A stretch of DNA of 55,532 bases from IMG/VR virus record IMGVR_UViG_3300015241_000005, positions 1 through 55,532 of that record. One strand, written 5' to 3'. The stretch comes from a virus. The notes under the pieces were generated by a model. The model was not told where the DNA came from. It made no database searches and saw only the letters and a program-made list of their open reading frames with translations. The translations under genes were made by a program, and so were the position numbers. This document shows, piece by piece, positions 7,629 to 50,025 of this stretch (its first letter is position 1; each line of letters starts with the position of its first letter).

Positions 7629-8209
7629 AAACAATAGAAATTCAATTATTCAAATTCGCTGAATTATCAAGCGAAGCACAACAAAACGCAATACAAAAAG
7701 AGCGTGAATGTATGTACGAGACCGGCGAAGTTTTATATAACTTTTATGAATATTGCGTAGAAAAATTAACGGAATGTGGCTTTGTAAATCCTAAAATCGA
7801 ATATTCGTTATCCTATTCGCAGGGAGACGGACTAAGCTTTTGGGCTGATAGCTATACGATTTTAAATGATATTATTTTACGCACTGTGGGCGTTCACCAC
7901 CCCAAAATTACCGCCTTTTTATCGAACAATTTAGCATTAAAGATAAAGGGTAATAAAGGGCGTTATTGCTTTGCCTCAGAATCGGACATTGAAATGGAAT
8001 TGAGCTTTTACCCAAATAATGTTTGTCCGCAGGTTATTAGCCTTTTAGATAAGATATTAGAAAATATTCAAAGCGTGTATATGGCAACCTGTAAAGCGTT
8101 AGAGAACGACGGCTATGCCGAAATAGAATACCTGCAATCAGATAAAGCTATAATTGAAACCCTGGAAGCTAACGACTACGATTTTACCGCTAACGGTAAA
8201 ATATATTAA
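7625..8209 (+). CDS. Phage protein with SQGDG motif (194 aa)
   Basis: The N-terminus (IQLFKFAELSSEAQQNAI) and the motif YSLSYSQGDGLSFWA near residue 60 are shared by a widespread family of uncharacterised phage and plasmid proteins, recognised from memory. It is preceded by the third copy of the 16-base leader and overlaps the previous gene by ATGA. Members often sit among early or anti-restriction genes, which is why an anti-host role is conceivable; none is demonstrated. Confidence 0.7.
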   Translation: MKTIEIQLFKFAELSSEAQQNAIQKERECMYETGEVLYNFYEYCVEKLTECGFVNPKIEYSLSYSQGDGLSFWADSYTILNDIILRTVGVHHPKITAFLSNNLALKIKGNKGRYCFASESDIEMELSFYPNNVCPQVISLLDKILENIQSVYMATCKALENDGYAEIEYLQSDKAIIETLEANDYDFTANGKIY

Positions 8210-8242
8210 ACAATTTATAAATCACAAAAAAAACTTACGATC

Positions 8243-8437
8243 ATGACAACTACAGAATTAACCGAATTAATTACAGATATTTCTCTGTATGGATATGACT
8301 CTATCCGCGACATTGTGGACTACTCTGAAACAATAGGCGAAGTAGCGAGTTTACTTACCTCTTTCAAAGAGAGTATTGATAAGGCTTTACTAAATCTTGA
8401 TACGCTTAATCACGACGAAGAGTTAATCATTGAATAA
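8243..8437 (+). CDS. Acidic early protein (64 aa)
   Basis: A 64-residue, strongly acidic helical protein (MTTTELTELITDISLYGYDS). Its leader AACTTACGATCATG is a variant of the repeated 16-mer. Acidic small phage proteins can mimic DNA, as anti-restriction proteins do, but that is only a possibility here. The gene is the last before a terminator. Confidence 0.6.
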   Translation: MTTTELTELITDISLYGYDSIRDIVDYSETIGEVASLLTSFKESIDKALLNLDTLNHDEELIIE

Positions 8438-8487
8438 TATTGCCTGTAAAGGTTGATTGCAAGTTATCCAATAACAGAGCAATCAGT

Positions 8488-8519
8488 ACCCTGCTTAGCT
8501 CAGCTACAGCGGGGTTTTT
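8488..8519 (+). terminator. Rho-independent terminator in the early block
   Basis: ACCCTGC and GCGGGGT pair (one U-G wobble) around a 14-base loop and are followed by a T run. It ends the first early gene group and lies 42 bases before the next leader-bearing gene at 8562. Confidence 0.6.
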
Positions 8520-8561
8520 GGGTGCCGGATAAATGGTTTATTCGGTTAAAACTTGCAAATC

Positions 8562-9032
8562 ATGTCAACATTAGTAAAATTCTACATCGACCAGGATATT
8601 TATAAAGGCGAAATATTCGCTTATTTTCCACAATTAAATTATAATAAGCACCTATATGGCAATACGGTTAAAACCGGATATGCTCATATCGGGCAACATA
8701 CCAGCATTAATGCTGATTATATTAAAAATTGTAAATCTGCAACCCCTTCTGAATACGAGGATCTTAAAATGGAACTTGAAGGTTTGGATTATAAACTTAA
8801 GATTTTAAATAAAGGTTGCAGGATATCTAAATATATTATCCCTTCTTATTGGACCTCAGCTTTATACGATGCTGATTATTCAAATATGCTGGATACAGAA
8901 ATTGATCAGCTTAATGATTGGTTAGCTAAAAATGATCCTGGTAATATAATAGATATTGATTATCGGGAAACCTATATGCAGTTTGAGAATTTGGGGCATA
9001 CGGTTGTTGAATGCACATTTATAAAATTTTAA
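8562..9032 (+). CDS. Early protein of unknown function (156 aa)
   Basis: The fourth gene with the exact 16-base leader. The product is acidic and Tyr/Asn-rich, with FYIDQDIYKGEIFAYFP near the start and a helical middle. The second half contains LDTEIDQLNDWLAKNDPGN. No family recognised. It begins a new transcriptional group after the terminator at 8488-8519. Confidence 0.65.
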   Translation: MSTLVKFYIDQDIYKGEIFAYFPQLNYNKHLYGNTVKTGYAHIGQHTSINADYIKNCKSATPSEYEDLKMELEGLDYKLKILNKGCRISKYIIPSYWTSALYDADYSNMLDTEIDQLNDWLAKNDPGNIIDIDYRETYMQFENLGHTVVECTFIKF

Positions 9033-15541: not shown

Positions 15542-15826
15542 ATGAATAAATCCGAATCAGCTATCGAACGTAAACTCGGCAGAGAGATCAAGAAACTCGG
15601 CGGTTTATCCATCAAGCTTGTCTCTCCAACAATGCCGGGTGCGCCTGATCGCTTGATCTTCTTACCCTGGCGCCGGCTTTACCTGGTAGAACTCAAATCG
15701 GCTATCGGCGTATTATCAAAGCTGCAGGTTGTTGTGCATAAGATGTTCGCAGCAATCGGTTGGCCTGTGTATATCGTGAGTAATGATCAGGAATTAAATG
15801 ATTTTATAGAAGATGTGAGTATATGA
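15542..15826 (+). CDS. VRR-NUC domain nuclease
   Basis: A compact 94-residue PD-(D/E)xK nuclease of the VRR-NUC family. The active-site signature is visible: Glu near the start (SAIERKL), GAPDRLIF with the catalytic Asp, and VELKSAIGVLSKLQ with the ExK pair and following Gln. Family members resolve branched DNA during recombination. It lies inside the replication operon and overlaps the methyltransferase start as ATGA. Confidence 0.9.
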   Translation: MNKSESAIERKLGREIKKLGGLSIKLVSPTMPGAPDRLIFLPWRRLYLVELKSAIGVLSKLQVVVHKMFAAIGWPVYIVSNDQELNDFIEDVSI

Positions 15827-17112
15827 ATGTATTAAGTTTGTTCGATGGAATGTCATGCGGCAGAATTGCTTTAGAGAGAGCAGGAGTTACCGTGACCAAT
15901 TATTTCGCTTCTGAGATTGATAAATACGCTATCCAGGTATCTAAAGCCAACTGGCCGGATATCAAACATGTCGGTTCCGTAACATCTTTGGAGATAATTT
16001 TTGATAACGGTTATACAACTATCCTGAACTACATATCCGGAGAAACTTTTACTTTTGAAGGTAAAATAGATCTGATAGTCGGCGGATCTCCTTGCCAGGG
16101 TTTCAGCTTTGCGGGTAAACAACTGAATTTCAAAGACGCTCGATCAGCGTTATTCTTTGAATATGTCCGATTAAAAGAAGAAAGCCAAGCAACTTATTTC
16201 TTTTTAGAGAATGTCGTAATGAAGCAGGAATATCAGGATGTGATATCCGGTTTTATGGGTGTTCAACCAATTAAGTTAAATGCTGCTTTAGTATCTGCGC
16301 AGAATAGGAAACGATTATATTGGACTAACATACCTTATTTTGGGGCACCAGCTGACCGGGGTATTTTATTGAAGCATATTTTAGTTAAAGATTTTGCTAA
16401 CGATATAGAACTTAAAAGCTTATGTTTATCTGCGGGTTATTCTAATAATCCTTCTCTCCGGGATTACAATAAAAGTCAAAAGCAATTAATAAGATTAGGT
16501 AATAGCCATCCTTCTTCTTCTGGAATGAACGGAGAAGTTTATAGCATCGAAGGAAAAGCCCCTACAGTAACCACAAATAAGGGTGAAGGATCTAAAATCG
16601 GAATGCTTCAGGTAGGTTTAGCTGACGACATAAAAGGTTTTGATGCGAACAGGCGAATCTATTCGCCTGAAGGAAAAGGACCTACGCTAATAAGTTCAAC
16701 AGGGGGCCATAAAGCGCCAAAAGTCGAATTAATTCCCGAAGATTTGTATTTATCAGAAGAAGAAGTCCTTCGGGGCCAGCACCAAGCATCCGCTAAAGTT
16801 TGGCATACGGGCAATAAGATAGGTAAAATGGATTTCCCGAATAACCCTGATAAGAAAGCCAAAACCCTAACTGTTGTACAAACTAAAGGCGGTAGAGAGA
16901 CAAACCATTTCCATAATGGAGTTACTTACCGCAAGCTAACAGTTACCGAGTGCGAACGTTTACAAAATGTAGGTGATGGATACGTACAACGATTAGCACC
17001 CGCAGCAAAACAGATTAGTAACACACAAGCATACAAAATGCTCGGTAACGGCTGGGAGTGCAATACAATAACCTACCTGTTCACGCCTTTATCGATCATA
17101 GACCTCCTATGA
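15823..17112 (+). CDS. DNA C5-cytosine methyltransferase
   Basis: A 429-residue enzyme with all landmark motifs: I (SLFDGMSCGRIAL, 5-17), IV (GGSPCQGFS, catalytic Cys91), VI (FLENV, 128-131), VIII (QNRKRLYWTN, 160-169) and X (KMLGNGWECNTI near the C-terminus). The target-recognition region between VIII and IX repeats a YS-EGK-PT motif twice, as in other phage-encoded relatives. It transfers methyl groups from AdoMet to cytosine. No partner restriction enzyme is visible, so it probably protects phage DNA from host restriction. It is ATGA-coupled on both sides. Confidence 0.95.
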   Translation: MNVLSLFDGMSCGRIALERAGVTVTNYFASEIDKYAIQVSKANWPDIKHVGSVTSLEIIFDNGYTTILNYISGETFTFEGKIDLIVGGSPCQGFSFAGKQLNFKDARSALFFEYVRLKEESQATYFFLENVVMKQEYQDVISGFMGVQPIKLNAALVSAQNRKRLYWTNIPYFGAPADRGILLKHILVKDFANDIELKSLCLSAGYSNNPSLRDYNKSQKQLIRLGNSHPSSSGMNGEVYSIEGKAPTVTTNKGEGSKIGMLQVGLADDIKGFDANRRIYSPEGKGPTLISSTGGHKAPKVELIPEDLYLSEEEVLRGQHQASAKVWHTGNKIGKMDFPNNPDKKAKTLTVVQTKGGRETNHFHNGVTYRKLTVTECERLQNVGDGYVQRLAPAAKQISNTQAYKMLGNGWECNTITYLFTPLSIIDLL

Positions 17113-18461
17113 CCCGCATCCCCTACAATCCCAAGAAACATCAGGAAATCGCTTTTAACTTTGCTTTAAACAGACATTTCGTGGCATTGTTCCTGGATAT
17201 GGGCCTCGGGAAAACAGTAACAACCCTCACCTTAATCAAGCATCTCCTGTACTCCTTCGAGATCAACAAACCCCTGATCATAGCCCCCAAATTCGTAACC
17301 GAACAGACCTGGCCCGAAGAGCTGGATAAATGGGCGCATCTTGAAGGGCTCACCTACTCTGTGATCATGGGCAATCCTGAAAAGCGCCTGAGAGCTCTCC
17401 GGGCACCTGCAGATATGTATATCATCAGCTGGGATAACATCGATTGGCTGGTAAGCCTTAAAAAGTTCAAACACCTCTGGCCATTTGATATGATGGTTCT
17501 GGATGAAAGTACCAAAGTTAAATCGCGAGATAGCGCCCGGTTCAAAGCCGTTCAACGAGTACGGCCGCGCCTTAAACGACTGATCGAACTTTCCGGTACG
17601 CCAGCGTCAAACGGATTGATGGACATCTGGTCGCAAATGAAACTGCTTGATCATGGCGAAGCATTGTTCGCTTTCATCGAGAAATTCCGGGCTACCTACT
17701 TCAGCGCACGAGGTTTATCTCATGGTGGTAAAGTGTATGATATTTTACCTGGTGTTGATGAAATCATTTTCGATAAGATCAAACATCAGGTGTTATCCAT
17801 GAAAGCAGTGGATTGGTTGACCCTCCCAAAACGGCAGGATATCATCCGCATGGTAGAGCTTGATGATTATACCGAGTTCAAGAAATTCAAAGCTGAAAAG
17901 ATTTTAGAATTACCCGAGGGTGAGATCACTGCATTAAACGCATCCGCATTATATAATAAGTTACTCCAGTACGCGAACGGAGCCGTCTACGACAATGAGT
18001 TACGCCGGGAATGGCACGAAGTACATACCAAAACTTTAGACGTCCTGGAAGAGATGCTGGATGCCCTGCAAGGCAAACCGGTTATTATCTTCTACCAGTT
18101 TCAGGCAGATGTTGACCGGATTAAAAAACGTATCCCTAAAGCTGTTAAAATGGATAACGCCAAGTACGTGGACCGCTGGAACAAGGGAGAATTTCCTGTA
18201 TTGCTTCTGCATGGTGCAGGGGCCAGCCATGGCCTTAACATGCAATATGGAGGTCATTATATCATTCATTATGGTGTAGGCGATAACATGGAGTGGTACT
18301 GGCAGGGGGTGAAGCGCTTAGATCGACAGGGTCAAGAGTTCCCGGTGTTTAATTACCATATCATGGTTAAAGGCACCGGCCAACAGAAAGTATGGCGCGG
18401 GTTGGTGAGCAAGACTTTGACTAATGATAAATTGATGGAGGCTTGTAAAGGGGATTATTAA
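17109..18461 (+). CDS. SNF2-like phage DNA helicase
   Basis: A 450-residue superfamily 2 ATPase. Motifs: I DMGLGKT (30-36), II DEST (132-135), III SGTP (162-165), and in the second RecA lobe GASHGLNMQ and RLDRQGQ as motifs V and VI. It is shorter than chromatin SNF2 proteins and typical of phage replication modules beside VRR-NUC and VapE genes. The ATG at 17109, in an ATGA overlap, is chosen. Its stop overlaps the stop of the convergent methyltransferase (18458-18461). Confidence 0.9.
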   Translation: MTRIPYNPKKHQEIAFNFALNRHFVALFLDMGLGKTVTTLTLIKHLLYSFEINKPLIIAPKFVTEQTWPEELDKWAHLEGLTYSVIMGNPEKRLRALRAPADMYIISWDNIDWLVSLKKFKHLWPFDMMVLDESTKVKSRDSARFKAVQRVRPRLKRLIELSGTPASNGLMDIWSQMKLLDHGEALFAFIEKFRATYFSARGLSHGGKVYDILPGVDEIIFDKIKHQVLSMKAVDWLTLPKRQDIIRMVELDDYTEFKKFKAEKILELPEGEITALNASALYNKLLQYANGAVYDNELRREWHEVHTKTLDVLEEMLDALQGKPVIIFYQFQADVDRIKKRIPKAVKMDNAKYVDRWNKGEFPVLLLHGAGASHGLNMQYGGHYIIHYGVGDNMEWYWQGVKRLDRQGQEFPVFNYHIMVKGTGQQKVWRGLVSKTLTNDKLMEACKGDY

Positions 18462-19723
18462 AGTAAGTCTTTGATATAATTTCTATTCCAATGCAGCAAC
18501 CGATCTGTAGCCTCTTGGTGCGAAATATGGTCATTATCAATCCCGATATACCGCATGCCATTATTAAGAGCAGCTTCGCAAGTTGGACCCGAACCCGAGT
18601 GTGGATCTAACACAAGACCACCAGGTGGCGTATACATCTTTACCAAATAATTCATCAATTTTATAGGCTTTATCGTAGGGTGCGTCATTCCGGCTCTTTC
18701 TGCGGTACTGGTTTTAGCGCAAAAGAAAAACCTGCTTGCACCTCCTGTATCGCCATATCCCGTTACTGGAATACCTCCAGCATATTGACCAAAAATATTG
18801 TTATTATTTCCAGCTTTTACTCCGGCAGGTTTTCCGCTTGTTAAAGTTCCTGATTGTTGATCGAGTTTTAAGGCCATGAAATCATCAAATATTACGTTAG
18901 CCGGCCAGCGGCCTTTATCATCAGCGGGTATATCTTTTATTTCTGTTTGCAAATATCCCTCTTTAAAAGAACCATTTTTAATATTAATTCCTGTCCCAAA
19001 AGTTGCTGATTTTTTATCCTTTTCATCTGTAAAAGCTATCCGGCAGCCATCGATATTAATGCCGCCTGTACCCCATTTTAAAATATTCTCAATTGTAGTA
19101 CCTTCCAAAGGTTTACGAGCGATACAGATGGGTTCCGTAGCTGGTTTTAAAGCATTTCCCCAGCCGTCCCACTTTTTGGCATCATCCGTATTGGCTTGCG
19201 TAATAAAGTTTTCTTCGCGAGTATGAGATCCGTCAACAGATACGCTATTAAATTTACCTCCTTTATGGTTTGGAATAGAACCGTTTGTTCCTATGATTAT
19301 GCGTTTAGCACCTGCAGCTTTATCGATTTCTTTGCCGATATCCAAGTTCTTAGGAAACCCTGAGGCATAGTGCCAACAGATCATATCCCGAATCTCGAAA
19401 CCCGCTATCTCGATCGCCAGCGTACCAAGTTGATAAGTCCGGGTACCAAAAAAGCTTAACAGATAACCACCCGGTTTAAGGACCCGTAAACATTCTTTCC
19501 AGAGAATAGGTTGTGGCACAAATGCGTCCCATTTCTTACCCATGAAACCGGAACCTTTGATTTCCAGATACCCATGATCAAGCCACGCTTGTAATATTTT
19601 AAGCAAATATTGCTTTTTACTTAAACCGTAGGGGCTATCTGTTATAATAGAATCTATGCTATTATCAGGTAAGGTTTTAATGTATTCGAGATTGTCGGAG
19701 AGAACGAGTATGTTTACTTTCAT
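18458..19723 (-). CDS. DNA N6-adenine or N4-cytosine methyltransferase
   Basis: A 421-residue N6_N4_Mtase-type enzyme. The catalytic motif IV is DSPYG at 29-33 (variant of DPPY) near the N-terminus, and the AdoMet-binding motif I is DPHSGSG at 373-379 near the C-terminus, the beta-class order. Between them is a long variable target-recognition region. The conserved GGYLLSFFGTRTYQ stretch is typical of phage-borne members. No nuclease partner is seen, suggesting protection from restriction. Its ATG overlaps the upstream small gene's stop as TAATG. Confidence 0.9.
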   Translation of the reverse strand: MKVNILVLSDNLEYIKTLPDNSIDSIITDSPYGLSKKQYLLKILQAWLDHGYLEIKGSGFMGKKWDAFVPQPILWKECLRVLKPGGYLLSFFGTRTYQLGTLAIEIAGFEIRDMICWHYASGFPKNLDIGKEIDKAAGAKRIIIGTNGSIPNHKGGKFNSVSVDGSHTREENFITQANTDDAKKWDGWGNALKPATEPICIARKPLEGTTIENILKWGTGGINIDGCRIAFTDEKDKKSATFGTGINIKNGSFKEGYLQTEIKDIPADDKGRWPANVIFDDFMALKLDQQSGTLTSGKPAGVKAGNNNNIFGQYAGGIPVTGYGDTGGASRFFFCAKTSTAERAGMTHPTIKPIKLMNYLVKMYTPPGGLVLDPHSGSGPTCEAALNNGMRYIGIDNDHISHQEATDRLLHWNRNYIKDLL

Positions 19724-20458: not shown

Positions 20459-21076
20459 TTATAAGAAATCTACAATACTGCCTTTGAGCAATTTTTCGAC
20501 AGGCCATCCATTTTTATGTCTCGATTTTACTGTTCCATAATTCATATAAAATCTATCCGATGCCTGCTTCATGGTCATTAAACCTAATGGCGTAGGAACC
20601 ATAACGTTATTGCTTTTATTAGACCCTTGTTCTTTTTTAGTAGCCCATCGGCAATTATCTTTATAATAGTTTAAATCACCGTTAATCCGATCTATGGATA
20701 AATCTTCTGCATAGGTATCGCCCATATCGGCATAAAAATTATCAAATAGCCCCCACTCCGCGCATACTGAAATACCTTTACCTCCGTAATATGAATAAAA
20801 CATATGGTTAGGATTGGTACATCTCTGCCACATTCCTGACCAAACTCTGTATATTTTAGTTTGACCCATACCGTGACGGAAACTTAGATTCGGAGCGCAC
20901 CCGCATGATGGCCTTTTACATATTTTTAAAATAGTACCTGTGGTTGTTCGCATCCTACCGCAATCACATAAACAGGTCCAGGTTGCATGATTTCCTTTAG
21001 TTCTGATTGGGCTTTCAGCTATAACAGTGAGCATGCCAAATTTCTTACCTACTAAATCCTCTTTAACTTTATACAT
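20459..21076 (-). CDS. Free-standing HNH homing-type endonuclease
   Basis: A 205-residue protein. The N-terminus (KKFGMLTVI, then CLCDCG and SCGC) is a Cys-rich DNA-binding module common in phage HNH/AP2 proteins. The core shows YRVWSGMWQRCTNPNH, YYGGKGISVCAEW, LSIDRING and NCRWAT, the usual pattern of this HNH subgroup. The C-terminus (TPLGLMTMKQASDRFYMNYG onward) is an HTH repeat. The ATG at 21076 comes one base after the polymerase stop. Its place next to an intein-bearing gene suggests a homing partnership. Confidence 0.85.
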   Translation of the reverse strand: MYKVKEDLVGKKFGMLTVIAESPIRTKGNHATWTCLCDCGRMRTTTGTILKICKRPSCGCAPNLSFRHGMGQTKIYRVWSGMWQRCTNPNHMFYSYYGGKGISVCAEWGLFDNFYADMGDTYAEDLSIDRINGDLNYYKDNCRWATKKEQGSNKSNNVMVPTPLGLMTMKQASDRFYMNYGTVKSRHKNGWPVEKLLKGSIVDFL

Positions 21077-21077
21077 C

Positions 21078-23516
21078 TTAGCTTTCTTTTTTATAATAAA
21101 TTCCGGTATACCCATCAGCGTCCAAAGGTAAATCTTTCATCCACCGAACTTTTTTACACATTAATTCGTTTATTCGTTGCAACGTAATTGAGCCTTTCCT
21201 AATCTCCGGAACAGCTTCATCATGCACATGCGCTGGTATTCTAATACCGGCTCTGTGGAGATTGATCAGGCCGGAAGCTAAGCAGTCCCTTGCAATTGCT
21301 TGGGTAAAATTTTCACAAATTTTCGCGCCATATGTGCGCTGTTTGCACCACTGTTTAGTTACTTGGTTAAGCCCATAATAGATTACCTCTTTACCAAACT
21401 TGCCATCTTCTAAGCCAGCATTCCAATAACATAAGCGCCGCCCTGAGGGTAGTCTGATCAACATATGGCCTTTTACAAATTCAAAAGCTATACCTCGCTC
21501 AGTATCAACCAAGATATTTCCATCATAATCTCGTATATCGGTAAGCATTATTCGCGCACCGGTCTCAATACATATAACAGCTGCTCTCTGCGCAGCTTTC
21601 CACATCTTAACTATCTTAGGATTAGCTTTTCGCCAATTTATATGTATATCGCCTAATATGTCTTCAGGTATTTCAATCTTTTGGCTAAGCGACATTCTTA
21701 TGATTGCATCAACTCCGCCGCCAAATCCGCAATTATGAACAAGTTTATCCGATACTGTGAATCGGTTATTTGGTCCACAGTTTAAAAGATCAAAAGTATC
21801 TCTCACGCCTATATCATGCCAATCTCCTCCTCTCGAAAAAGGAAGTCCCCCATGTTCTATTTTAATAGGTTTCTCGTTTTCGGCGGTTTGAGTTAATAGC
21901 CAACCTTCCGTATACGCTTCTTTAAAATCTATAGGTTTAGTTAATCCATCTACCCAAACTCGATGATCGGGGGTTGCAGTTAATCCTTCATAGTTTACAA
22001 CATGTTTTCTACCGCGCCATATTAAACCACCATGATTAACCCAATTTTCACCATCCCAAACTTTATGCTCAGGAAGTATATATTCAATTCTGACTAAACC
22101 TTGGTCGGTTAAAACCAATTCCCCAAATGCAATACAGCTCAATTCTCCTATTTTACCGCCATCTCGGTAAACAGATCCCTTTGTCACGGCTGCTATAGGA
22201 ACATTGAACATACGGGCTGCAGTAGCCTCATAAATCTTACCGTCACCGGCGAACACATCTAATCTCCAGGTCTCATTCGCCAACCAGGATATTACCCGTG
22301 CCTCTATCGACTTGAAATCAGATACCGGGAACTCATACCCCTCTTCGGCTATGAACGCCGTACGGATCAGCTGTGAAAGTGTATCGGGTATTGCGCCGAA
22401 TATGATCTCCAGTAACTCGCCGTCAGCATTCAAAACCATTTCCCTGGCTGCATTTAATAGATAATCGCTTAACTTGCTTTTTGGTAGGTTATGGAACTGC
22501 AAACCCCGGCCAGCCCATCTACCGGTACGGTTAGCGCCAAGGAACTGGAACAAACCCCGAATCCGGCCATCCTTACAAACGTAAGCCAGCATCGTTGAAT
22601 ATTTCTTAACCGAGGTCTTGGACATTTGCTGCCTGATCTCTAAAACCCGTTTCGATTTATCGGAAGTTAGTTTCCTCAGAACAGCGGGTATGTTATCCTT
22701 TTTAAGACTTACAATCTCACCTTCAATATCCTCTTCTTCTTCCAACCATTTGATAATTTGCTTAACAGCATTAGGCTTGGTAATGCCGGTCATATCAAAT
22801 AACTCCTTAGTAAGCCGTTCCCGAAAATCGAAATTAAGCTTTAAAGCATTATGTATTAAATTCAAATCAATTTTAATACCGGTGCTGTTGATCACATAAT
22901 CCAGGCACCATAGTTCATGTTCAAAATCTGGCTGAACCAGGAAATCAACTTCTTTAGCCACTGATATTTCAGATCGCACATCCTGATCACAATATCGTTT
23001 GAATTGATCCCATTTAACTCTATCGTGTTCCGGCAGATTACGGGTACGACCACCATTCACAATAGTAGGTGCGCATGGCATGCAGAAATATTTGATCAGT
23101 GCATAACCGTTTCCGTCCTTCTGTTCATTTATTTTTAATATCCGGCCAACAGCTTCCAAAGCAAAGGGGAGTCCGCAGGAGCCGGCTTGAATCATGGTGC
23201 ATTTCCAGCATCTCGGATCGATATCGATCTCGAAAAATATTTTAGAAGCATTCATCTCAAAAGGAGCATTCTGAGCCCGTTTTAAGCAAGTAGGATCTTC
23301 AAGAGCTTGTAATAGTTCTGCAGGTATTCGTTGTCTGGGCGGTAAATGCCGCTTTTGCATAAGATCAACAGATTTTACCGGGCCTCCATCGAATGAATAA
23401 GATACCAACATGATCTCAAATTGGGGGTCCTCCATATAGCGATACATACCGTGTTTTAGAAGATCAGTTGCCGAGTATGTCTCAAAATCGAGGTTTATTG
23501 TGCGAGTGAAAGTCAT
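21078..23516 (-). CDS. Family A DNA polymerase with mini-intein
   Basis: The 812-residue precursor would splice to about 677 residues. The N-terminus is a DEDD 3'-5' exonuclease (DFET at 10-13, QNAPFEMN, YCDQDVRSE). The polymerase has motif A VSDFKSIEAR (398-407), motif B RDGGKIGELS...CGFGGG interrupted by the intein, and motif C HVHDEAVPE. It replicates the phage genome with the VapE primase-helicase. Residues 461-595 form a self-splicing Hint domain. It overlaps the upstream gene as ATGA. Confidence 0.95.
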   Translation of the reverse strand: MTFTRTINLDFETYSATDLLKHGMYRYMEDPQFEIMLVSYSFDGGPVKSVDLMQKRHLPPRQRIPAELLQALEDPTCLKRAQNAPFEMNASKIFFEIDIDPRCWKCTMIQAGSCGLPFALEAVGRILKINEQKDGNGYALIKYFCMPCAPTIVNGGRTRNLPEHDRVKWDQFKRYCDQDVRSEISVAKEVDFLVQPDFEHELWCLDYVINSTGIKIDLNLIHNALKLNFDFRERLTKELFDMTGITKPNAVKQIIKWLEEEEDIEGEIVSLKKDNIPAVLRKLTSDKSKRVLEIRQQMSKTSVKKYSTMLAYVCKDGRIRGLFQFLGANRTGRWAGRGLQFHNLPKSKLSDYLLNAAREMVLNADGELLEIIFGAIPDTLSQLIRTAFIAEEGYEFPVSDFKSIEARVISWLANETWRLDVFAGDGKIYEATAARMFNVPIAAVTKGSVYRDGGKIGELSCIAFGELVLTDQGLVRIEYILPEHKVWDGENWVNHGGLIWRGRKHVVNYEGLTATPDHRVWVDGLTKPIDFKEAYTEGWLLTQTAENEKPIKIEHGGLPFSRGGDWHDIGVRDTFDLLNCGPNNRFTVSDKLVHNCGFGGGVDAIIRMSLSQKIEIPEDILGDIHINWRKANPKIVKMWKAAQRAAVICIETGARIMLTDIRDYDGNILVDTERGIAFEFVKGHMLIRLPSGRRLCYWNAGLEDGKFGKEVIYYGLNQVTKQWCKQRTYGAKICENFTQAIARDCLASGLINLHRAGIRIPAHVHDEAVPEIRKGSITLQRINELMCKKVRWMKDLPLDADGYTGIYYKKES
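21732..22136 (-). other. Mini-intein (135 aa) in DNA polymerase motif B
   Basis: In-frame Hint domain at residues 461-595 of the polymerase. Block A is CIAFGELVLTDQGLVRI, beginning with nucleophile Cys1. Block B has TATPDHRVW with the TxxH pair. Block F is DTFDLLNCGPNNRFTVSD. Block G is KLVHN with terminal Asn, followed by Cys as the +1 extein residue. At 135 residues there is no space for a homing endonuclease. Removal joins GKIGELS to CGFGGG, restoring the nucleotide-binding helix region. All splicing residues are present, so it should be active. Confidence 0.93.
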
Positions 23517-37796: not shown

Positions 37797-38887
37797 CCGA
37801 ATATATTTTGAGGCTCATCGCCAGTAAATGTTTCTGCCAATACTAATACCCCTGTCATGGTTTTACGTTCTGAGCTTTGTTGTATCACCGTGCTTTCCAA
37901 TACCATACGGGCGGTATTATTTATGAATATTTCCGGATTAAGCACTTCTATGATATCACCCACACTTATCTTTTCCCAATGATCAAGCGCGAATAAAACC
38001 CTGATATTTTTAAGTTCTGCGGCCCGCATATTAAGCGCGGCCCTGTTAGTATCGTAAAATGACAGTTTTGTTAAACGTCGAACCAGAGGGCGGTAAGCCA
38101 AGACCAAAGGATTTTTAACAGTATTAATTGATTCTATCTTAAAGATTCTACCCTGCCCATTCGATTCTGCATCAGGATTTGTTATTTGGCCATTATCCTC
38201 TTCGCCTTCAAATGAATTTTCACCTTTACTTCGGGAGGGTTGCCTGAGGCAAGTAATATCACTATGTATCTTGGTACCATCTATAGCTAACTCCATTTCG
38301 AGAGTATTCTCGCCGGTAAGCGTAAGTTTAGTCGGCGCGGAAATATCGGGTCTGAACAAAATCACATTACCGTGGATATCGTGACTGATCACAACATTCT
38401 TTTGATTAGCTACTTTACATAAATAATCTTTTATAGTTTCATCAACTTTAGCTACTGTCTTGGCGATTAACTGCAATGATTCTTTTGCCACAACGGGATA
38501 AGTAATCGCATTCAAATGGAAAGGAGTAATTAGCCGGGCCACAATCTGCGCTAAGGTTCTATTATTGCTTTCGAGAGGGTATAGTGAATACGGAATTTGA
38601 CAATCATCCAAAACGCCAGGTAAGCTATACCCTGATATCTGTACAAGATTATTTTCTTTAGAAGATTTAAAACTATGGTGAGTGATAGTTCCAGTCATGA
38701 TCAAGCCATCATCATGAAAAAATTCTATTTTATAATAACTGAGCGGTTTAAAAAGTACTTTATGATCAGGATTATTTTGATCATAGAAAGCTGTAAAAGT
38801 AAAAACGCTGGCAATCGTATCCAGGGTCGTACTGATTACGACAGCATTAAAATAATTATAAAATTTATCGTTTACTTTAATGGTCAT
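37793..38887 (-). CDS. Baseplate hub protein (Mu gp44/P2 gpD-like)
   Basis: A 364-residue protein starting MTIKVNDKFYNYFNAVVIST, with YKIEFFHDDGLIMTGTITHH, a LysM-like middle and a C-terminal WEKISVGDIIEVLNPEIFI domain. The order N (38884), P (37793), gp45 (37287) is that of Mu. It forms the central trimer above the spike. Confidence 0.8.
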   Translation of the reverse strand: MTIKVNDKFYNYFNAVVISTTLDTIASVFTFTAFYDQNNPDHKVLFKPLSYYKIEFFHDDGLIMTGTITHHSFKSSKENNLVQISGYSLPGVLDDCQIPYSLYPLESNNRTLAQIVARLITPFHLNAITYPVVAKESLQLIAKTVAKVDETIKDYLCKVANQKNVVISHDIHGNVILFRPDISAPTKLTLTGENTLEMELAIDGTKIHSDITCLRQPSRSKGENSFEGEEDNGQITNPDAESNGQGRIFKIESINTVKNPLVLAYRPLVRRLTKLSFYDTNRAALNMRAAELKNIRVLFALDHWEKISVGDIIEVLNPEIFINNTARMVLESTVIQQSSERKTMTGVLVLAETFTGDEPQNIFG

Positions 38888-40113
38888 ATGTAATATTTTA
38901 TCTGTGTTCCCTTTGGCACCAAAAATACGCTACTATTTTTCAGATTATTAATTGTTCGAAACGTTTCGATATTTGCATCGGCAACATCCAGACCCATATA
39001 TTTATGTGTCAGCACTACTAATTGCGCATCTACAGTAAGCAATACCAATCGTTCTACTTTTGCGTTAAATGCTACTGTATTTAAATTATAAAGTGCTTGC
39101 AATACAACATCCTGCAAAGCGGTTTGAGTTTCTTGGCTGGCACTGAAGGAGTTATTGATATCACCAATCTCTACATAAGAGACATCAAGAATAATGAGAT
39201 AATCTGCATACATATCTTGCAAATTATTTGCTACAGCTACGACCTGATCCCGGGTAATATAATCACCCGGAAGTGGAGTTGTTATAGCCTGAGCCAAAGA
39301 ACATACAGAGATACCGGCAATTGTCTCAAAGAAAGCTTTATTATTTTTTGTATTAGCATCAGTTAATAGTCTAACCGCGCTGTTATAAATGGCTCCGATC
39401 ATTTGAATACGCAAACCTACGGAGAGCTCAAATTTAGATGGTTGCAATATTACATTGTGCACAGCTGTAATAGCATCAACCGGGGCCAGTATCAAATTGT
39501 TAACCGTATCCATCATGGTATTCACATCAGTAATAAAACTGGTGTAATTTATCTGGTCAACTGATTTCTTGATAATAGCTGTAATATCAGTAGCAAAGTC
39601 TGTAGCCATTGAAACATCAGCTGGCTTCAAATTTACTTTGGAAGCATAATTAATAGGAGATATGGTGTGAAAGATAGTTTGTAGCTTAACTACCTGATCA
39701 GCTGTAGCAATAAATACTACTGGAAAAGTTGTCGTAATAGTTTCCCAAAAATCTATGGTTATCTCAGTAGCATTTAATTTAGCATCATTACGCCGGATAC
39801 TGATAGGTTGCCCGGTAATGTCTCCATATTGAGGATGCCTTACTACCCAAGCCCGCGGGTCATTAGCTGACTTATCAAAAGCATCTGCAGTTTCAATATT
39901 TTGCGCACCCTGGAAATAAAATATCAACTCGAACTTGCGGGCTCTAACTAATTTACGGGTAATAAGCGCCCCTGGCTGATCTATAAATTCAAAAGTTGCC
40001 GCGTTAAATTCTTTTATAGTTTCATAGTTGACTGGTAGGTCGGGGGTATATAGCTTACCGTCACCAGTCCGGATAGTAAAAATGGTATTTTCAACATTAT
40101 CTTGCCAGCCCAT
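38884..40113 (-). CDS. DNA circularisation/tail protein (Mu gpN-like)
   Basis: A 409-residue protein whose N-terminus MGWQDNVENTIFTIRTGDGK, then DQPGALITRKLVRARKFELI and WVVRHPQYGDITGQPISI, fits the DNA_circ_N family represented by Mu gpN. It is ATGA-coupled to the hub gene. In Mu this protein joins the tail tube to the baseplate. The remaining 280 residues are helical and variable. Confidence 0.75.
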   Translation of the reverse strand: MGWQDNVENTIFTIRTGDGKLYTPDLPVNYETIKEFNAATFEFIDQPGALITRKLVRARKFELIFYFQGAQNIETADAFDKSANDPRAWVVRHPQYGDITGQPISIRRNDAKLNATEITIDFWETITTTFPVVFIATADQVVKLQTIFHTISPINYASKVNLKPADVSMATDFATDITAIIKKSVDQINYTSFITDVNTMMDTVNNLILAPVDAITAVHNVILQPSKFELSVGLRIQMIGAIYNSAVRLLTDANTKNNKAFFETIAGISVCSLAQAITTPLPGDYITRDQVVAVANNLQDMYADYLIILDVSYVEIGDINNSFSASQETQTALQDVVLQALYNLNTVAFNAKVERLVLLTVDAQLVVLTHKYMGLDVADANIETFRTINNLKNSSVFLVPKGTQIKYYI

Positions 40114-44721: not shown

Positions 44722-45194
44722 ATCGTTTGGTTACTGATTAATTCGCCCGAGGCATTGTTCCAAATAAAACTCACAGTTACATCTTGGTTATTAGGTTGCG
44801 TAAGCGTTGCTGTCAGTTGTATTTTATTAGTAGCTAAAATTACAACATTTGTAGTTATGTTGGCTATTGATTTTAAATATTGTAAATCAGCATCAAAAGC
44901 CCGTTGAATAGCTACTCTACCTGAGCTGTTAAGCACATTTTGTCGCAACGCTAATTCGGTTTGCGAGTTAAACTGGCTTCCCGGATCATTAGGGAAGAGC
45001 AATGGATTGGCCCACCAATCTTCGCGGATAGTTCCGGCTGGTTCATTTCCTAACGTAGAGGCTTCTATATTCCCCCCAAATGCCGCAAGATAAACCTGGT
45101 TATACAGATATTCAATTAAAGCAATATCATCGCTCTGCACCGCTAATTCACCGCCTGAGCCTGCTTCGTAAATAAGTATGTCTTGCGTTATCAT
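44718..45194 (-). CDS. Baseplate sheath initiator, Mu gp46-like
   Basis: A 158-residue GP46-family protein: QSDDIALIEYLYNQVYLAAF, EPAGTIREDWWANPLLFPN and RVAIQRAFDADLQYLKSIAN. It is a functional counterpart of T4 gp25. ATGA overlap on both sides, the standard place between tape measure and J. Confidence 0.8.
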   Translation of the reverse strand: MITQDILIYEAGSGGELAVQSDDIALIEYLYNQVYLAAFGGNIEASTLGNEPAGTIREDWWANPLLFPNDPGSQFNSQTELALRQNVLNSSGRVAIQRAFDADLQYLKSIANITTNVVILATNKIQLTATLTQPNNQDVTVSFIWNNASGELISNQTI

Positions 45195-47074
45195 TGTTTC
45201 CCTGTTGTTGAGCCTTGGTGAAGCGATACTGGTATATGTGCCGGTGTTATTGTTTTTGAATTATCAATATGTCCGCCTGGATCATTGATGTGCAAATCGA
45301 TACGATTATTCGTCTTAGTTGTATCTGATTTAAGTGTAGCATCTTTTTCCGTTAACTGCGGATAAGTTTTAGCGTCTGGATTAGCCCCATACATTTTCGC
45401 AAAGCGAGTAGCCAGTGCGTTATCCGAATAATCAACTCCTGGAATATATTTTTTTTGATCAGCTACCCATTTTTCATAGGCCTTTTCTTCTTTCATATCC
45501 CCAACTCCGCCATTAAAAAATGGAGTTTTATTTGAATCACCACCATAGTGGTGTTGGCCAGCCTCGTATTCTTTAAATGCTCCCCATAATGACCATCCTG
45601 CCATAGCTGCTAATGCCGCTGGAATCACAAAAGTAGCTAAGGTCGCAAAGAATCCAGAAGCTGCGGTTTCGGCTAATGCAAACTCGGCTGTAACACCAGA
45701 AAGCGCACCCCCAAAACCCGTTACGGTAACAGCTTCGGTAGCTAAAGAAGTCGTGGCCACCGCAGCACTTTCAGCAAGCATTAGTTGATATCCGGCCCAT
45801 AATTTCATAACCGATGCTATCCCGGATACCGCAAACGCTAAAGGCGCTATGATTACCAATAAAGAACCAATCGCGCCTACCGTTAATAAAATAACCTTAG
45901 CTAATGTTGGATTATTATCTATCCATTTACCAAACCATTCGACTACGGGCTGTAACATTTTAGCGAGATTTACCAACACCGGCAATAGCGCTGCGCCTAC
46001 TTTTATGCCGAAATATTCCATCTCGTTTTTTAAAAGCTGTGATTGCGCTTTCATGGTATTAAGTTTATCTGCATATGCAGCCGCAAGATCAATTTCACTA
46101 TTTGCCATCCCCGCAAGATTGTTATTATAGGCTGCTTTACCGTTGCCGGTTAGCGAAATAACCGCAGCGAACGCTTGTACTTTACCCCACGCCTTAGCTA
46201 AGTTAACCCCGCGTTTTGTGCCCATATCCTCTACGGCTTTCATGGCATTTCCGAGATTTCCAAATTTGATAATCAATTCTCTTACATCCTTAACTCCCAA
46301 TTCGTGAAACAAATATTTCATACGGGTAGTTGGTTTTTCTAAAGCAAATACCGATGATCTCACCTGATTCATAGCTTGCGAGGCTGGTTCGCCCATTACC
46401 GTCATAGCTGCAGTGGCCGCTAAAAAGTCATTCAATTTTACACCCCCTGCATGTACCACATTAGCTGTTGCGCCAAAGGACTCCGACATTCCATCGATAG
46501 TTGTCTTACCAAGACGTACGGTTTCGAAAAGCATTGATGCAATCTTATTGGTGCTTAACCCTTCATCCCGGAAAACATTGATAGCACTGGTAAGCGCATC
46601 AGCTGCCTGGGTGGCTGTTCCGCGACCTGCTGTACCTAATATCGCGGATTTATTTAAAACATCCAAAGCCTGAGCTGCCGGGACGCCTGCGGATCTTATC
46701 TTATAAAGTGCATCGGTTAAATCGTGCAAAGGCATCGGAACTTTTACGAATACGTCCAACACTTCTTTACCCATCGATACCATACTTTCTTTAGTAGTAT
46801 CAACCAAAGTAGCAACAGTAGCCATCTGATCTTCAAAATCAATGGCCTCCTGCACCGCGCGATGTAGCGGAATCATGATAGCTGCGCCCATAACCCCGGC
46901 GGCTATTCCTATCTGAGAAGCGTTTGTTTGGATATTCTGCATACTGCGGGACATTGCAGCATATTTTTTTTGAGTTTCAGTGGCAAACTTAGAAACATTG
47001 CCACCCATTTTTGATACTACAGAACTTAATCTGTCAACGGCAGTAAATATAGTGGGTACGGTTAATGCTGCCAT
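45191..47074 (-). CDS. Tail tape measure protein
   Basis: A 627-residue protein with the TIGR01760-type core (EAIDFEDQMATVATLVDTTK, KIRSAGVPAAQALDVLNKSA, GTATQAADALTSAINVFRDE) and several hydrophobic stretches in the second half (ILLTVGAIGSLLVIIAPLAF). It sets tail length; at about 0.15 nm per residue this suggests a tail near 90-100 nm. Its ATG overlaps the frameshift product's stop (TAATG). Confidence 0.9.
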   Translation of the reverse strand: MAALTVPTIFTAVDRLSSVVSKMGGNVSKFATETQKKYAAMSRSMQNIQTNASQIGIAAGVMGAAIMIPLHRAVQEAIDFEDQMATVATLVDTTKESMVSMGKEVLDVFVKVPMPLHDLTDALYKIRSAGVPAAQALDVLNKSAILGTAGRGTATQAADALTSAINVFRDEGLSTNKIASMLFETVRLGKTTIDGMSESFGATANVVHAGGVKLNDFLAATAAMTVMGEPASQAMNQVRSSVFALEKPTTRMKYLFHELGVKDVRELIIKFGNLGNAMKAVEDMGTKRGVNLAKAWGKVQAFAAVISLTGNGKAAYNNNLAGMANSEIDLAAAYADKLNTMKAQSQLLKNEMEYFGIKVGAALLPVLVNLAKMLQPVVEWFGKWIDNNPTLAKVILLTVGAIGSLLVIIAPLAFAVSGIASVMKLWAGYQLMLAESAAVATTSLATEAVTVTGFGGALSGVTAEFALAETAASGFFATLATFVIPAALAAMAGWSLWGAFKEYEAGQHHYGGDSNKTPFFNGGVGDMKEEKAYEKWVADQKKYIPGVDYSDNALATRFAKMYGANPDAKTYPQLTEKDATLKSDTTKTNNRIDLHINDPGGHIDNSKTITPAHIPVSLHQGSTTGKQ

Positions 47075-47729
47075 TATTTTTTATTTAACGCCTTGATGGC
47101 CTCCTGCTGTCTTTCTATTTCATTATACCAAAATATAATACCATGATAGTCTTTAGCATCAACAAACATACCTTCGATATACTGAGGCGATGCCCAACTA
47201 TAATTACTGCACAAAGGCAATATAGCATTGTCCAGGCTTGCAGCCTCGCCGGGACCTACTGAAAAAGCCCCACTACCTCATCGATAGTTTGAATATCTGT
47301 CTTACACTCGCTGATCTTATCCAATAAAGCTACCGAGCCTATGCCCGTATAATAAGTACTTAGGATATTAGCAAAACCAATCGGGTTTTTACCAATATCA
47401 AACCCCTTTGTTAGTTGGGCCAGTGTGCTTTTCGTGATACGGGTTTTAAAAACGATCTTCTCCGTATTGAAATTACCACCTTCACTTAACAAAGGTTTTT
47501 TCAAAGTTAAAACAGGCGCATCCAAATCGGATAGATCAAGTAGCCCGCGTTTAACCGCTTTAAGGATATTTCTAAAATCCTTTGGGATGTCCAAATACTG
47601 ATCAGATGCACGATCATCGGATATCACGATATCCTGATGATATTCAATAAAAGCCTTGATCTCGGGAATTGCGGCTTCTTCGGCTACTAAAAATTGTTCG
47701 CCTTGTACTTTTTCGATTTCTTTAGTCAT
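47074..47729 (-). CDS. Tail assembly chaperone, -1 frameshift fusion (about 218 aa)
   Basis: Ribosomes slipping back one base in the T5 run at 47262-47266 would leave the 157-residue frame after Phe156 and read 62 further residues, SVGPGEAASLDNAILPLCSN to KALNKK, ending in the TAATG junction with the tape measure gene. The second frame is open with protein-like composition. It is the gpGT-type product that loads the tube protein on the tape measure. Confidence 0.75.
47230..47270 (-). promoter_or_regulatory. Programmed -1 ribosomal frameshift signal
   Basis: Minus-strand GGGCTTTTTC (slip site, 47270-47261) is followed after six bases by a stem GTCC-AGGCT/AGCCT-GGAC with a bulge CGGCG and a GCA loop (47255-47230). 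A T run plus a stem 5-8 bases downstream is the standard arrangement for bacterial -1 frameshifting. Confidence 0.7.
47256..47729 (-). CDS. Tail assembly chaperone, short form (157 aa)
   Basis: The gpG-equivalent made without frameshifting. It has an acidic N-terminus and PVLTLKKPLLSEGGNFNTEK, then FKTRITKSTLAQLTKGF. It lies between tail tube and tape measure as in most tailed phages. It ends DEVVGLFQ and a TAG placed just after the slip site. Confidence 0.75.
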   Translation of the reverse strand: MTKEIEKVQGEQFLVAEEAAIPEIKAFIEYHQDIVISDDRASDQYLDIPKDFRNILKAVKRGLLDLSDLDAPVLTLKKPLLSEGGNFNTEKIVFKTRITKSTLAQLTKGFDIGKNPIGFANILSTYYTGIGSVALLDKISECKTDIQTIDEVVGLFQ

Positions 47730-47747
47730 GAGGGTTTTTATTGGGTA

Positions 47748-48149
47748 TTATGATATTAATTCCAGCTGTCCGCTGCCTTGTACTTTTAAAGGCATTGTGC
47801 CGGTATTACTGTCAAATTTAAGTTCACCTATAGGAGTTCCTAAGCCTTTATAGATAGCACCGGAAATCATCTCCCAGGTCCAGGTAGAAAGTTGAGGTTG
47901 GGCTGCGAGGGCTGCAGTTCCATCAAATTCATTCCCGCTAACCATATCTACGGCCACGGGGCCATCACAACTCCAGGGTTCTACCGATTTCACGATTATA
48001 GCCTGGCCGTTACCGGTCATGGTTATCTCATTACGGATACCGCCTTTATCCAAGTTAAATGATTCTTTGGCTTTTGGAGAAAACCTGAAAGATCCTAATA
48101 CAGGATCGGTACAGGTTATTGTTTTTACGTCACCGGCTATGAAACTCAT
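47748..48149 (-). CDS. Tail tube protein
   Basis: A 133-residue beta-rich protein (MSFIAGDVKTITCTDPVLGS, RNEITMTGNGQAIIVKSVEP) following the sheath gene and before the chaperone, the position of Mu gpM. The inner tube through which DNA passes. The family match is by pattern and place. Confidence 0.75.
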   Translation of the reverse strand: MSFIAGDVKTITCTDPVLGSFRFSPKAKESFNLDKGGIRNEITMTGNGQAIIVKSVEPWSCDGPVAVDMVSGNEFDGTAALAAQPQLSTWTWEMISGAIYKGLGTPIGELKFDSNTGTMPLKVQGSGQLELIS

Positions 48150-48180
48150 CGTTTGATTTTTTAAGTTTTAAATATTTTTG

Positions 48181-50025
48181 TTAAAAACCAACAGTTACGG
48201 TAGTCGATTCTATTTCGCTCGTACCTGTACGTTTATAGCTAAAGGTAGTATTAAATCGATTAGGATTTACCGAATCAATTTCAACTGCCAATGATTTCTT
48301 ACTGAAAGCCGGATCGGTGATCAAACCTAAAATAGCCAGCGTATCGAAATAGGTGAAAAGAACCGCTTTCCAATCGGACGGCCTGATCACATCCTGCACT
48401 GAAGTATATTGCCCATCGGCGATAATAGTTTTATCGCGAAGCGTGCTTATCTCCAGCAAGGTGTACCCATATTTCACATTCCAATCAATGTTCAGGTACC
48501 TGGCCTCGTTAAATACCAAAGGTACTTCACCAGTAGGATGGTATGTGGTAACCAAATCCTGTACCTGATAAGCACCGTTTATTAATGTTACCGTGCTGCA
48601 GCCTTTTGTTTTTAAAAGATTACGATTTGTATAATTAGCGAGATCCCCGATCAAATTACTCGCTGGAGCTGTAATATCTGCGTATGAAAGTCCCGCTACC
48701 GTAAGATGCGGTGTTGATTGGGCTACTACAGCAAATAGCAAGCACATAGCTGCTGCCACCTCATAAGGCATATTGCCACTTGAAGGAGCCGGGCATAGTA
48801 TGTTGGTTACTTGGGCTATCCTGCCAACTGCATCCGTGATGGCTACTAAATCTGAAGCTACCGGATCTGTCGAACCGAAGAATGCCATAAAAGGCATAAA
48901 TACCATTGGCTGATATTGCCCGGTAGGGTTGATAGGATCAGGTACTCCGTTAAAAGCTTCCAAAGCAGCGACTTGCGCTACTCCATAGCTGTTAACAACC
49001 AGGGTGTACCATTTTGCCTGAAACTGTGTTAATGCAGTCGCTATTGATGGTGATCCGCTGCCTGCTGTAGTTGAAGTGTTGGTATAAGTCAAACCAATAG
49101 ATCCGCCATTAACATCTATTATTGCTGTTAGGTCTGCCGAAGTTAATCCAACCCATTTTGAAGTAAGTGTTAGTGTACCTACGGGATAAGTTCCTGGGGT
49201 ATTGGTGATAACCGCAGATGCACCGGTACCTGTCTGTACAACCGGTGTGGTCACGCCAACAGAAGTAGAAGTAAACACTACGGTATTTGAGGTCACAGTG
49301 CCTGTGGCAAAACCAGTTAAAGTTCCTGAGTAAGTTCCTGTGCCTGTTCCCGGGCCGGTAGCCGCACCATTAGCCAAACTGGCGAATGCTGACGCTAATT
49401 GAGCTTGCGTAGTCGTGCCTGTAGAGGTGTAGGTTAGCCCCCCAAGAGTAACTGTTTGCCCGGCTGTCAATGACGTAGCTGAAAAAGCAACGGATGAAGT
49501 GCCTGCAGTTCCAGAGGTACTCGATTGTGTTGCAACAACCGGCGACCCTAATACCGCATTGATCGCATTAAAATATTTAACTACAATAGTGTTACCGAAC
49601 TCGCCGGCAACGATATTTATAGCATAAGGCGCAAAATCAACAGATTCGCGACCAGCAATATTGATATAATGGGTTTTAGCAGTTGATGCTACTCCGGTAA
49701 TTGTCCAAACAATAACAGTTCCGGTTCCACCTGGCGCAGCTAATTGGGCCATTATCCAAACAGGGATACCTCCGATATTTGGAAACAACTGGCGAGCAAT
49801 AGCGTGTATGGGGCTTCCGTAACCATAGGTAGCACCAGCTTGCGCAGCAGATGTTATCTGGACTGGTGTGGTTACAATAGTGCTCTGATTAGCGGTATTC
49901 GCCTCTGCCAGTACAACTATTTGCTGTGGCAAATAGGGAGTAGCTGAGCTAAAGTTTCCCTTGTTTATCTGATATCCAGATGTACGGCTCACATCGTTTG
50001 ATGGCACTGCTGTCGAGATTCCCAT
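48181..50025 (-). CDS. Tail sheath protein with inserted Ig-like domain
   Basis: A 614-residue contractile sheath of the Mu gpL type: GATYGYGSPIHAIARQLFPN (65-84), then IPVWIMAQL, and C-terminal STLRDKTIIADGQYTSVQD and TTFSYKRTGTSEIESTTVTV. Residues about 165-280 are a Thr/Ser/Gly-rich module (LTAGQTVTLGGLTYTSTGTT) that is not part of Mu-type sheaths; without it the length would be about 500, near Mu gpL (495). The insert should project from the tail surface. Confidence 0.85.
   Translation of the reverse strand: MGISTAVPSNDVSRTSGYQINKGNFSSATPYLPQQIVVLAEANTANQSTIVTTPVQITSAAQAGATYGYGSPIHAIARQLFPNIGGIPVWIMAQLAAPGGTGTVIVWTITGVASTAKTHYINIAGRESVDFAPYAINIVAGEFGNTIVVKYFNAINAVLGSPVVATQSSTSGTAGTSSVAFSATSLTAGQTVTLGGLTYTSTGTTTQAQLASAFASLANGAATGPGTGTGTYSGTLTGFATGTVTSNTVVFTSTSVGVTTPVVQTGTGASAVITNTPGTYPVGTLTLTSKWVGLTSADLTAIIDVNGGSIGLTYTNTSTTAGSGSPSIATALTQFQAKWYTLVVNSYGVAQVAALEAFNGVPDPINPTGQYQPMVFMPFMAFFGSTDPVASDLVAITDAVGRIAQVTNILCPAPSSGNMPYEVAAAMCLLFAVVAQSTPHLTVAGLSYADITAPASNLIGDLANYTNRNLLKTKGCSTVTLINGAYQVQDLVTTYHPTGEVPLVFNEARYLNIDWNVKYGYTLLEISTLRDKTIIADGQYTSVQDVIRPSDWKAVLFTYFDTLAILGLITDPAFSKKSLAVEIDSVNPNRFNTTFSYKRTGTSEIESTTVTVGF

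Follow-up and report, generated by a model that had tools for sequence, protein, structure and literature searches.

Known inteins and out-of-frame HNH genes in phages

Annotations of phage DNA polymerases with inteins already exist in GenBank, and HNH genes lying out of frame within an insertion have been described in a putative intein of a brucellaphage terminase (PMC4422536) and in an insertion without a splicing domain in the ShiLan methylase (PMC11855218). Among open-licence papers, no published account of an intein family with out-of-frame HNH genes was found, an absence that is no proof of novelty. Here, we describe an insert in the DNA polymerase gene of a viral DNA stretch of 55,532 nucleotides (IMG/VR virus record IMGVR_UViG_3300015241_000005, positions 1 to 55,532; hereafter, the window). 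This insert is almost certainly a self-excising mini-intein from a phage family with out-of-frame HNH genes, in a copy from which the HNH region was probably lost.

The polymerase gene and its insert

The features of the polymerase region are listed in Table 1. Elsewhere in the window, tape measure, tail sheath and baseplate hub genes (45191-50025 and 38884-40113, both on the minus strand) are those of a contractile-tailed phage, and a DNA search of the phage collection with the tape measure/sheath stretch found no relative. Two different DNA methyltransferase genes (15823-17112, plus strand; 18458-19723, minus strand) flank the replication region.

Table 1. Features of the polymerase region, with their positions in the window and the evidence for each assignment
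Feature	Position	Strand	Evidence
Family A DNA polymerase, 812 aa	21078-23516	minus	PHROG 17 (E 3e-105), Pfam DNA_pol_A
Mini-intein, Hint splicing domain, 135 aa, Cys1 to Asn135	21732-22136	minus	Motifs, AlphaFold2, structure match, empty alleles
N-extein, 460 aa: exonuclease-like part, motif A, first half of motif B	22137-23516	minus	Pfam DNA_pol_A, residues 233-446; PHROG 17
C-extein, 217 aa plus stop: rest of motif B, palm/fingers, motif C	21078-21731	minus	PHROG 10285 and 7766, residues 596-811
Free-standing HNH endonuclease gene (P0002), abuts polA 3' end	20459-21115	minus	PHROG 374, E 4e-62

The insert comprises precursor residues 461-595 (CIAFGELVL...KLVHN) and is followed by the +1 Cys of the C-extein, whose codon lies at 21729-21731. 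Its flanks (RDGGKIGELS^CGFGGG) align with the O-helix (motif B) of family A polymerases, which has the form R-x3-K-x7-Y/F-G. The original prediction had placed the insert between GKIGELS and CGFGGG within the 812-residue frame and had expected 677 residues after its removal; the position proved exact to the nucleotide, and the polymerase computed from the sequence without the insert has that length. Since the insertion point lies inside the O-helix, polymerase activity is predicted to depend on splicing.

Splicing motifs and fold

The insert contains Cys1, a TxxH motif (T55-P-D-H58), the block F motif, a penultimate His and a terminal Asn. Cys1 provides the Cys, Ser or Thr found at position 1 in block A of class 1 inteins, T55-P-D-H58 provides their block B TxxH, and block F/G ends with DLLNCGPNNRFTVSDKLVHN before the +1 Cys, giving the His-Asn terminus of the class. 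Across 11 related mini-inteins, Cys1, T55, H58, D116, N119, G121, R125, F126 and N135 are invariant.

AlphaFold2 modelling of the insert from an 11-sequence alignment gave a mean pLDDT of 91.8 and a pTM of 0.85, and the best PDB matches of this model in Foldseek were the Ssp DnaB and Npu DnaE inteins. Alignment with the Mtu RecA intein (2in0) in VIA-align spanned residues 1-135, with a Z score of 17.4 and an rmsd of 2.0 over 123 residues. The model and the structure comparison thus assign to the insert the Hint fold of class 1 inteins, and the complete Hint domain previously read from the sequence, with Cys1, TxxH, terminal His-Asn and +1 Cys, is borne out by motifs and fold alike. The insert matched no intein or Hint model in Pfam or NCBIfam, so that family comparison and structure were needed for the assignment. 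Proteasome matches returned by phmmer for the insert against PDB sequences were rejected as spurious. Bacterial intein-like (BIL) domains lack a +1 nucleophile and occur in variable, non-conserved host proteins; the insert does not belong with them, as it is followed by a +1 Cys and is hosted by the catalytic helix of PolA.

Splicing of the insert is inferred. By analogy with known inteins, this class 1-type mini-intein would excise itself from the PolA precursor, join the polymerase halves and restore the O-helix through an acyl shift at Cys1 helped by TxxH, transfer to the +1 Cys, cyclisation of Asn135 helped by His134, and a final S-N shift. The intein probably persists because any inexact removal of it would cost the phage an essential polymerase.

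That the intein is degenerate or slow, splices poorly or conditionally and so acts as a switch of the polymerase is unlikely, yet this reading has some arguments on its side. In block F, the window has Asn (GPNNRF) where many relatives have His (GPNHRF/GPHHRF), and other proteins are known to harbour conditional inteins. However, one relative (L014) also has Asn at this position, all catalytic residues are intact, and failed splicing would cost the phage an essential polymerase.

Relatives at the same bond and their out-of-frame HNH genes

Inserts of 123, 132, 140, 168 or 309 amino acids were found at the identical bond in other polymerases, and the inteins sharing this bond range from 121 to 309 amino acids. 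The original prediction had placed the window insert near the lower size limit of inteins; with 135 residues it is indeed compact, but relatives of 121-123 residues exist and it does not mark the floor for the family. Predicted inteins of this smallest size are encoded at L149 909-1271, L072 425-790 and L002 7342-7710. In L002, the 123-residue mini-intein shares one polymerase with a 307-residue intein (8077-8997) that contains an out-of-frame HNH. Two mini-inteins also occur in the single phage polymerase of L014 (7024-7428 and 7801-8196), one at motif B and the other at a site further upstream (NRTGRW^), where the intein ends in Ser-Asn and is followed by a +1 Ser.

In the relatives of 309 amino acids, no recognisable in-frame endonuclease was found. 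The +1 frame of the same intein DNA contains an open frame of 266-269 residues that matches the PHROG 374 HNH endonuclease (E-values of 7e-24 in L003 and 4e-28 in L010). Matches to this HNH family were obtained in alternate frames of nine examples, and the neighbouring frame of L003, L010, L100, L096 and L104, which served as a control, gave no PHROG match. In a survey of the collected loci, drawn from phage records, IMG/VR contigs and prophages in bacterial genomes, the HNH always lay in the +1 or +2 frame of the intein: 54 distinct intein sequences carry it there, two of these as a remnant, and an in-frame HNH was seen in none. The carriers include L003 (7375-8301), L010, L030, L031, L032, L100 and L104. 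They occupy PolA motif B, a second PolA site (EN^CTQA; L002, L032, L123 and L159), the Jerseyvirus PolA intein (+2 frame) and other exteins, of which the flanks of L100, L101 and L104 read as helicase-like from their sequence, outside any database assignment. This nesting explains why large phage inteins may show no recognisable endonuclease when annotated in frame.

The HNH gene sits between blocks B and F of the splicing domain. In many motif-B members, a GAGGT resembling a Shine-Dalgarno sequence occurs together with an ATG at intein position +145, which is only suggestive of an internal HNH start and is not independent proof of one, because HNH-less mini-inteins often keep the same Glu-Val codons. 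The out-of-frame HNH gene (+1 or +2) would be the homing endonuclease of the family. Its translation probably begins at an internal start of its own, and the splicing frame would simply read through the HNH region. Truncated remnants of a +1-frame HNH were detected in L137 (4001-4405, 135 amino acids) and L028 (4330-4833, 168 amino acids), and both may represent inteins caught part-way through HNH loss.

Selection on the HNH frame

Substitution rates by codon position were compared across 13 dereplicated inteins of 309 amino acids. The N-terminal splicing block shows a normal pattern (0.30, 0.17 and 0.60 for the three positions), whereas in the overlap the rates in the intein register are rotated (0.60, 0.31 and 0.24), with the peak at the third position of the HNH frame. 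Across the overlap, the HNH frame shows 64% amino-acid identity, compared with 31.5% for the intein frame and 31.4% for the third frame. The HNH frame was favoured in 78/78 pairs of these inteins, and likewise in the +2 group (78/78), at the second PolA site (6/6) and in other exteins (6/6), a total of 168/168 pairs, which share sequences and are not independent tests.

The intein frame contains no stop across any of the 45 nested HNHs (45/45), while free-standing HNH genes (n = 32) have a median of about 8 stops in whichever of their two off-frames has fewer. The HNH frame is thus under selection, and the intein frame across the overlap behaves as open filler. In an AlphaFold2 model of a 309-residue intein, residues 1-86 and 281-309 form the two Hint halves and residues 87-280 have a pLDDT below 50, which fits a read-through filler in this segment, low pLDDT alone being no proof of disorder. 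Taken together, these inteins very probably form a widespread phage family whose endonuclease is an overprinted HNH gene that arose at least twice (two HNH lineages, in the +1 and +2 frames) and was lost repeatedly, with the window copy as an end point.

Origin of the window copy

The splicing domain of the window is homologous to that of HNH-bearing members. In the splicing-domain tree, it falls within a clade of 31 rows (100/98) that also holds 18 HNH carriers, 10 other mini-inteins and two remnants, and it has no firm position inside this clade. Mini-inteins are dispersed over the tree: L072/L073 beside L088 and L091, L149 beside L154, L137 (HNH remnant) beside L030, L014 beside L097, and L110 beside L160. 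The other two forward frames of the window intein contain neither an HNH (HNH model score of about -1) nor a remnant of one. The window copy therefore lacks the out-of-frame HNH of its family and is a mini-intein consisting of a splicing domain only. The earlier statement that it has no endonuclease holds for the window in all forward frames, but the in-frame reading behind it misses the out-of-frame HNH of full-length relatives.

Repeated HNH loss is the simplest reading of these scattered mini-inteins. As they are interspersed among HNH carriers, the window copy most likely descends from an HNH-bearing intein through loss of the HNH region. With neither an HNH remnant nor a firm position in the clade, loss in the window lineage itself is only inferred, and, given that no remnant is detectable, it is possible that its ancestor never carried an HNH.

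The neighbouring HNH gene

The free-standing HNH gene P0002 may start at an ATG at 21076, just past the polA stop (TAAGATG), or at 21115, overlapping polA; it also overlaps the annotated frame of the next gene. It seems improbable that P0002 acts in trans on intein-free polA, cutting it and thereby mobilising the mini-intein. A model for such trans-homing is provided by T4 mobE, which mobilises the nrdB intron (PMC2988022). Several observations favour it here: P0002 abuts polA, the mini-intein polA of L110 also adjoins a free HNH, and the two HNHs were paired in a first tree (91/89). In addition, HNHs of the same family are nested in the second PolA intein site (L002, L032, L123 and L159). However, the pairing disappeared in a tree with more free-standing phage HNHs, in which P0002 lies, without a firm position, among widespread HNHs and outside the nested lineage of motif B, and most mini-intein loci have no neighbouring HNH. 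A functional link between P0002 and the intein is speculative, and the proposal that P0002 is the intein's own endonuclease, relocated, was abandoned as a claim after the broader tree sampling. The free HNH of L110 (1454-2062) lies directly upstream of its polA, whose mini-intein has 146 amino acids.

Intein-free alleles and the nature of the insert

Among the polymerases found by similarity, the insert is precisely absent at the motif-B bond in L009, L011-L013, L015-L021, L023-L025 and L033-L035, a comparison set in which several loci are near copies of each other. The intein-free polymerases are 40-50% identical to that of the window and miss the insert exactly. The +1 residue is Cys in all insert-bearing alleles and Leu in the intein-free alleles, except L012 and L013 (Cys) and L032 (Ser; with an intein elsewhere). 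The Cys of L012 and L013 is possibly a trace left by an intein since lost, or it may mark a site that was pre-adapted.

The insert is not a product of chance, since it is precisely absent from related polymerases, and inteins occupy the identical bond in others. As in class 1 inteins, it is a precise in-frame insertion with intein-free host alleles. The alignment with intein-bearing and intein-free phage PolA proteins that was proposed as a check thus returned both precise empty alleles and inteins at the same bond, and the insert is best read as a mini-intein within motif B of a phage PolA, a site that is conserved from phage to phage. These empty alleles also exclude the case named at the outset as fatal to that reading, a PolA family carrying the 135 residues as a normal domain. 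The idea that they are an ordinary accessory domain, kept in the mature enzyme of one PolA subfamily, draws on the open reading frame through the insert and is very improbable, given relatives at such identity without it, a location inside the catalytic O-helix, and the presence of the intein fold with all splicing residues. The possibility that the insert is a group I intron or another RNA element whose frame is open by accident has nothing in its favour beyond insertion in a conserved site and can be dismissed, as Rfam at the gathering threshold gave no intron match in the window and the insert shows protein-level motif conservation and fold. Sequence, structure and distribution together identify the insert as an intein.

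Comparison with known systems

Considered alone, the window adds a further compact mini-intein of natural origin, which sits in an essential enzyme at a site that many phages reuse. The family offers a mobile intein without a fused endonuclease domain, in which mobility would come from a separately started gene nested out of frame. Matched alleles with an HNH, with a remnant and without an HNH at one site are material for studying the gain and loss of intein mobility, and natural splicing domains of 121-135 amino acids may serve as tools.

The annotated PolA inteins of Jerseyvirus Salmonella phages (e.g. PIZ SAE-01E2), Gardnerella phage vB_Gva_AB1 and Streptococcus prophages lie in the same catalytic helix and have the same splicing blocks as the window, but they are 299-309 amino acids long with an HNH in another frame, in contrast to the 135 HNH-less residues described here. 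The Jerseyvirus flanks place that insertion a few residues away from the window's bond within the helix. Closer counterparts are the mini-inteins of Ruminococcus phage NatCom_23091/29429 and a Streptococcus sciuri prophage, which are endonuclease-less, 135-140 amino acids long, located at the window's bond and about 45-50% identical; the S. sciuri mini-intein keeps a +1-frame HNH remnant, unlike the window copy. The solved mini-inteins Mtu RecA, Ssp DnaB, Npu DnaE and gp41-1 share the Hint fold over all 135 window residues (Z 15.8-17.4), whereas their identity is only about 20% and they occupy other host proteins and sites.

The window element itself is another intein in a phage DNA polymerase, a type already annotated. 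The part that is surprising to a specialist is the overprinted-HNH family, with an HNH captured at least twice (two HNH lineages) and often lost. The brucellaphage terminase and ShiLan cases resemble this family in that an essential or conserved phage gene contains an insertion with an out-of-frame HNH. However, the former is a single gene called a putative intein and the latter lacks a splicing domain, whereas the family described here combines a confidently assigned splicing domain with dozens of relatives, which occupy several sites in PolA and also helicase-like proteins.
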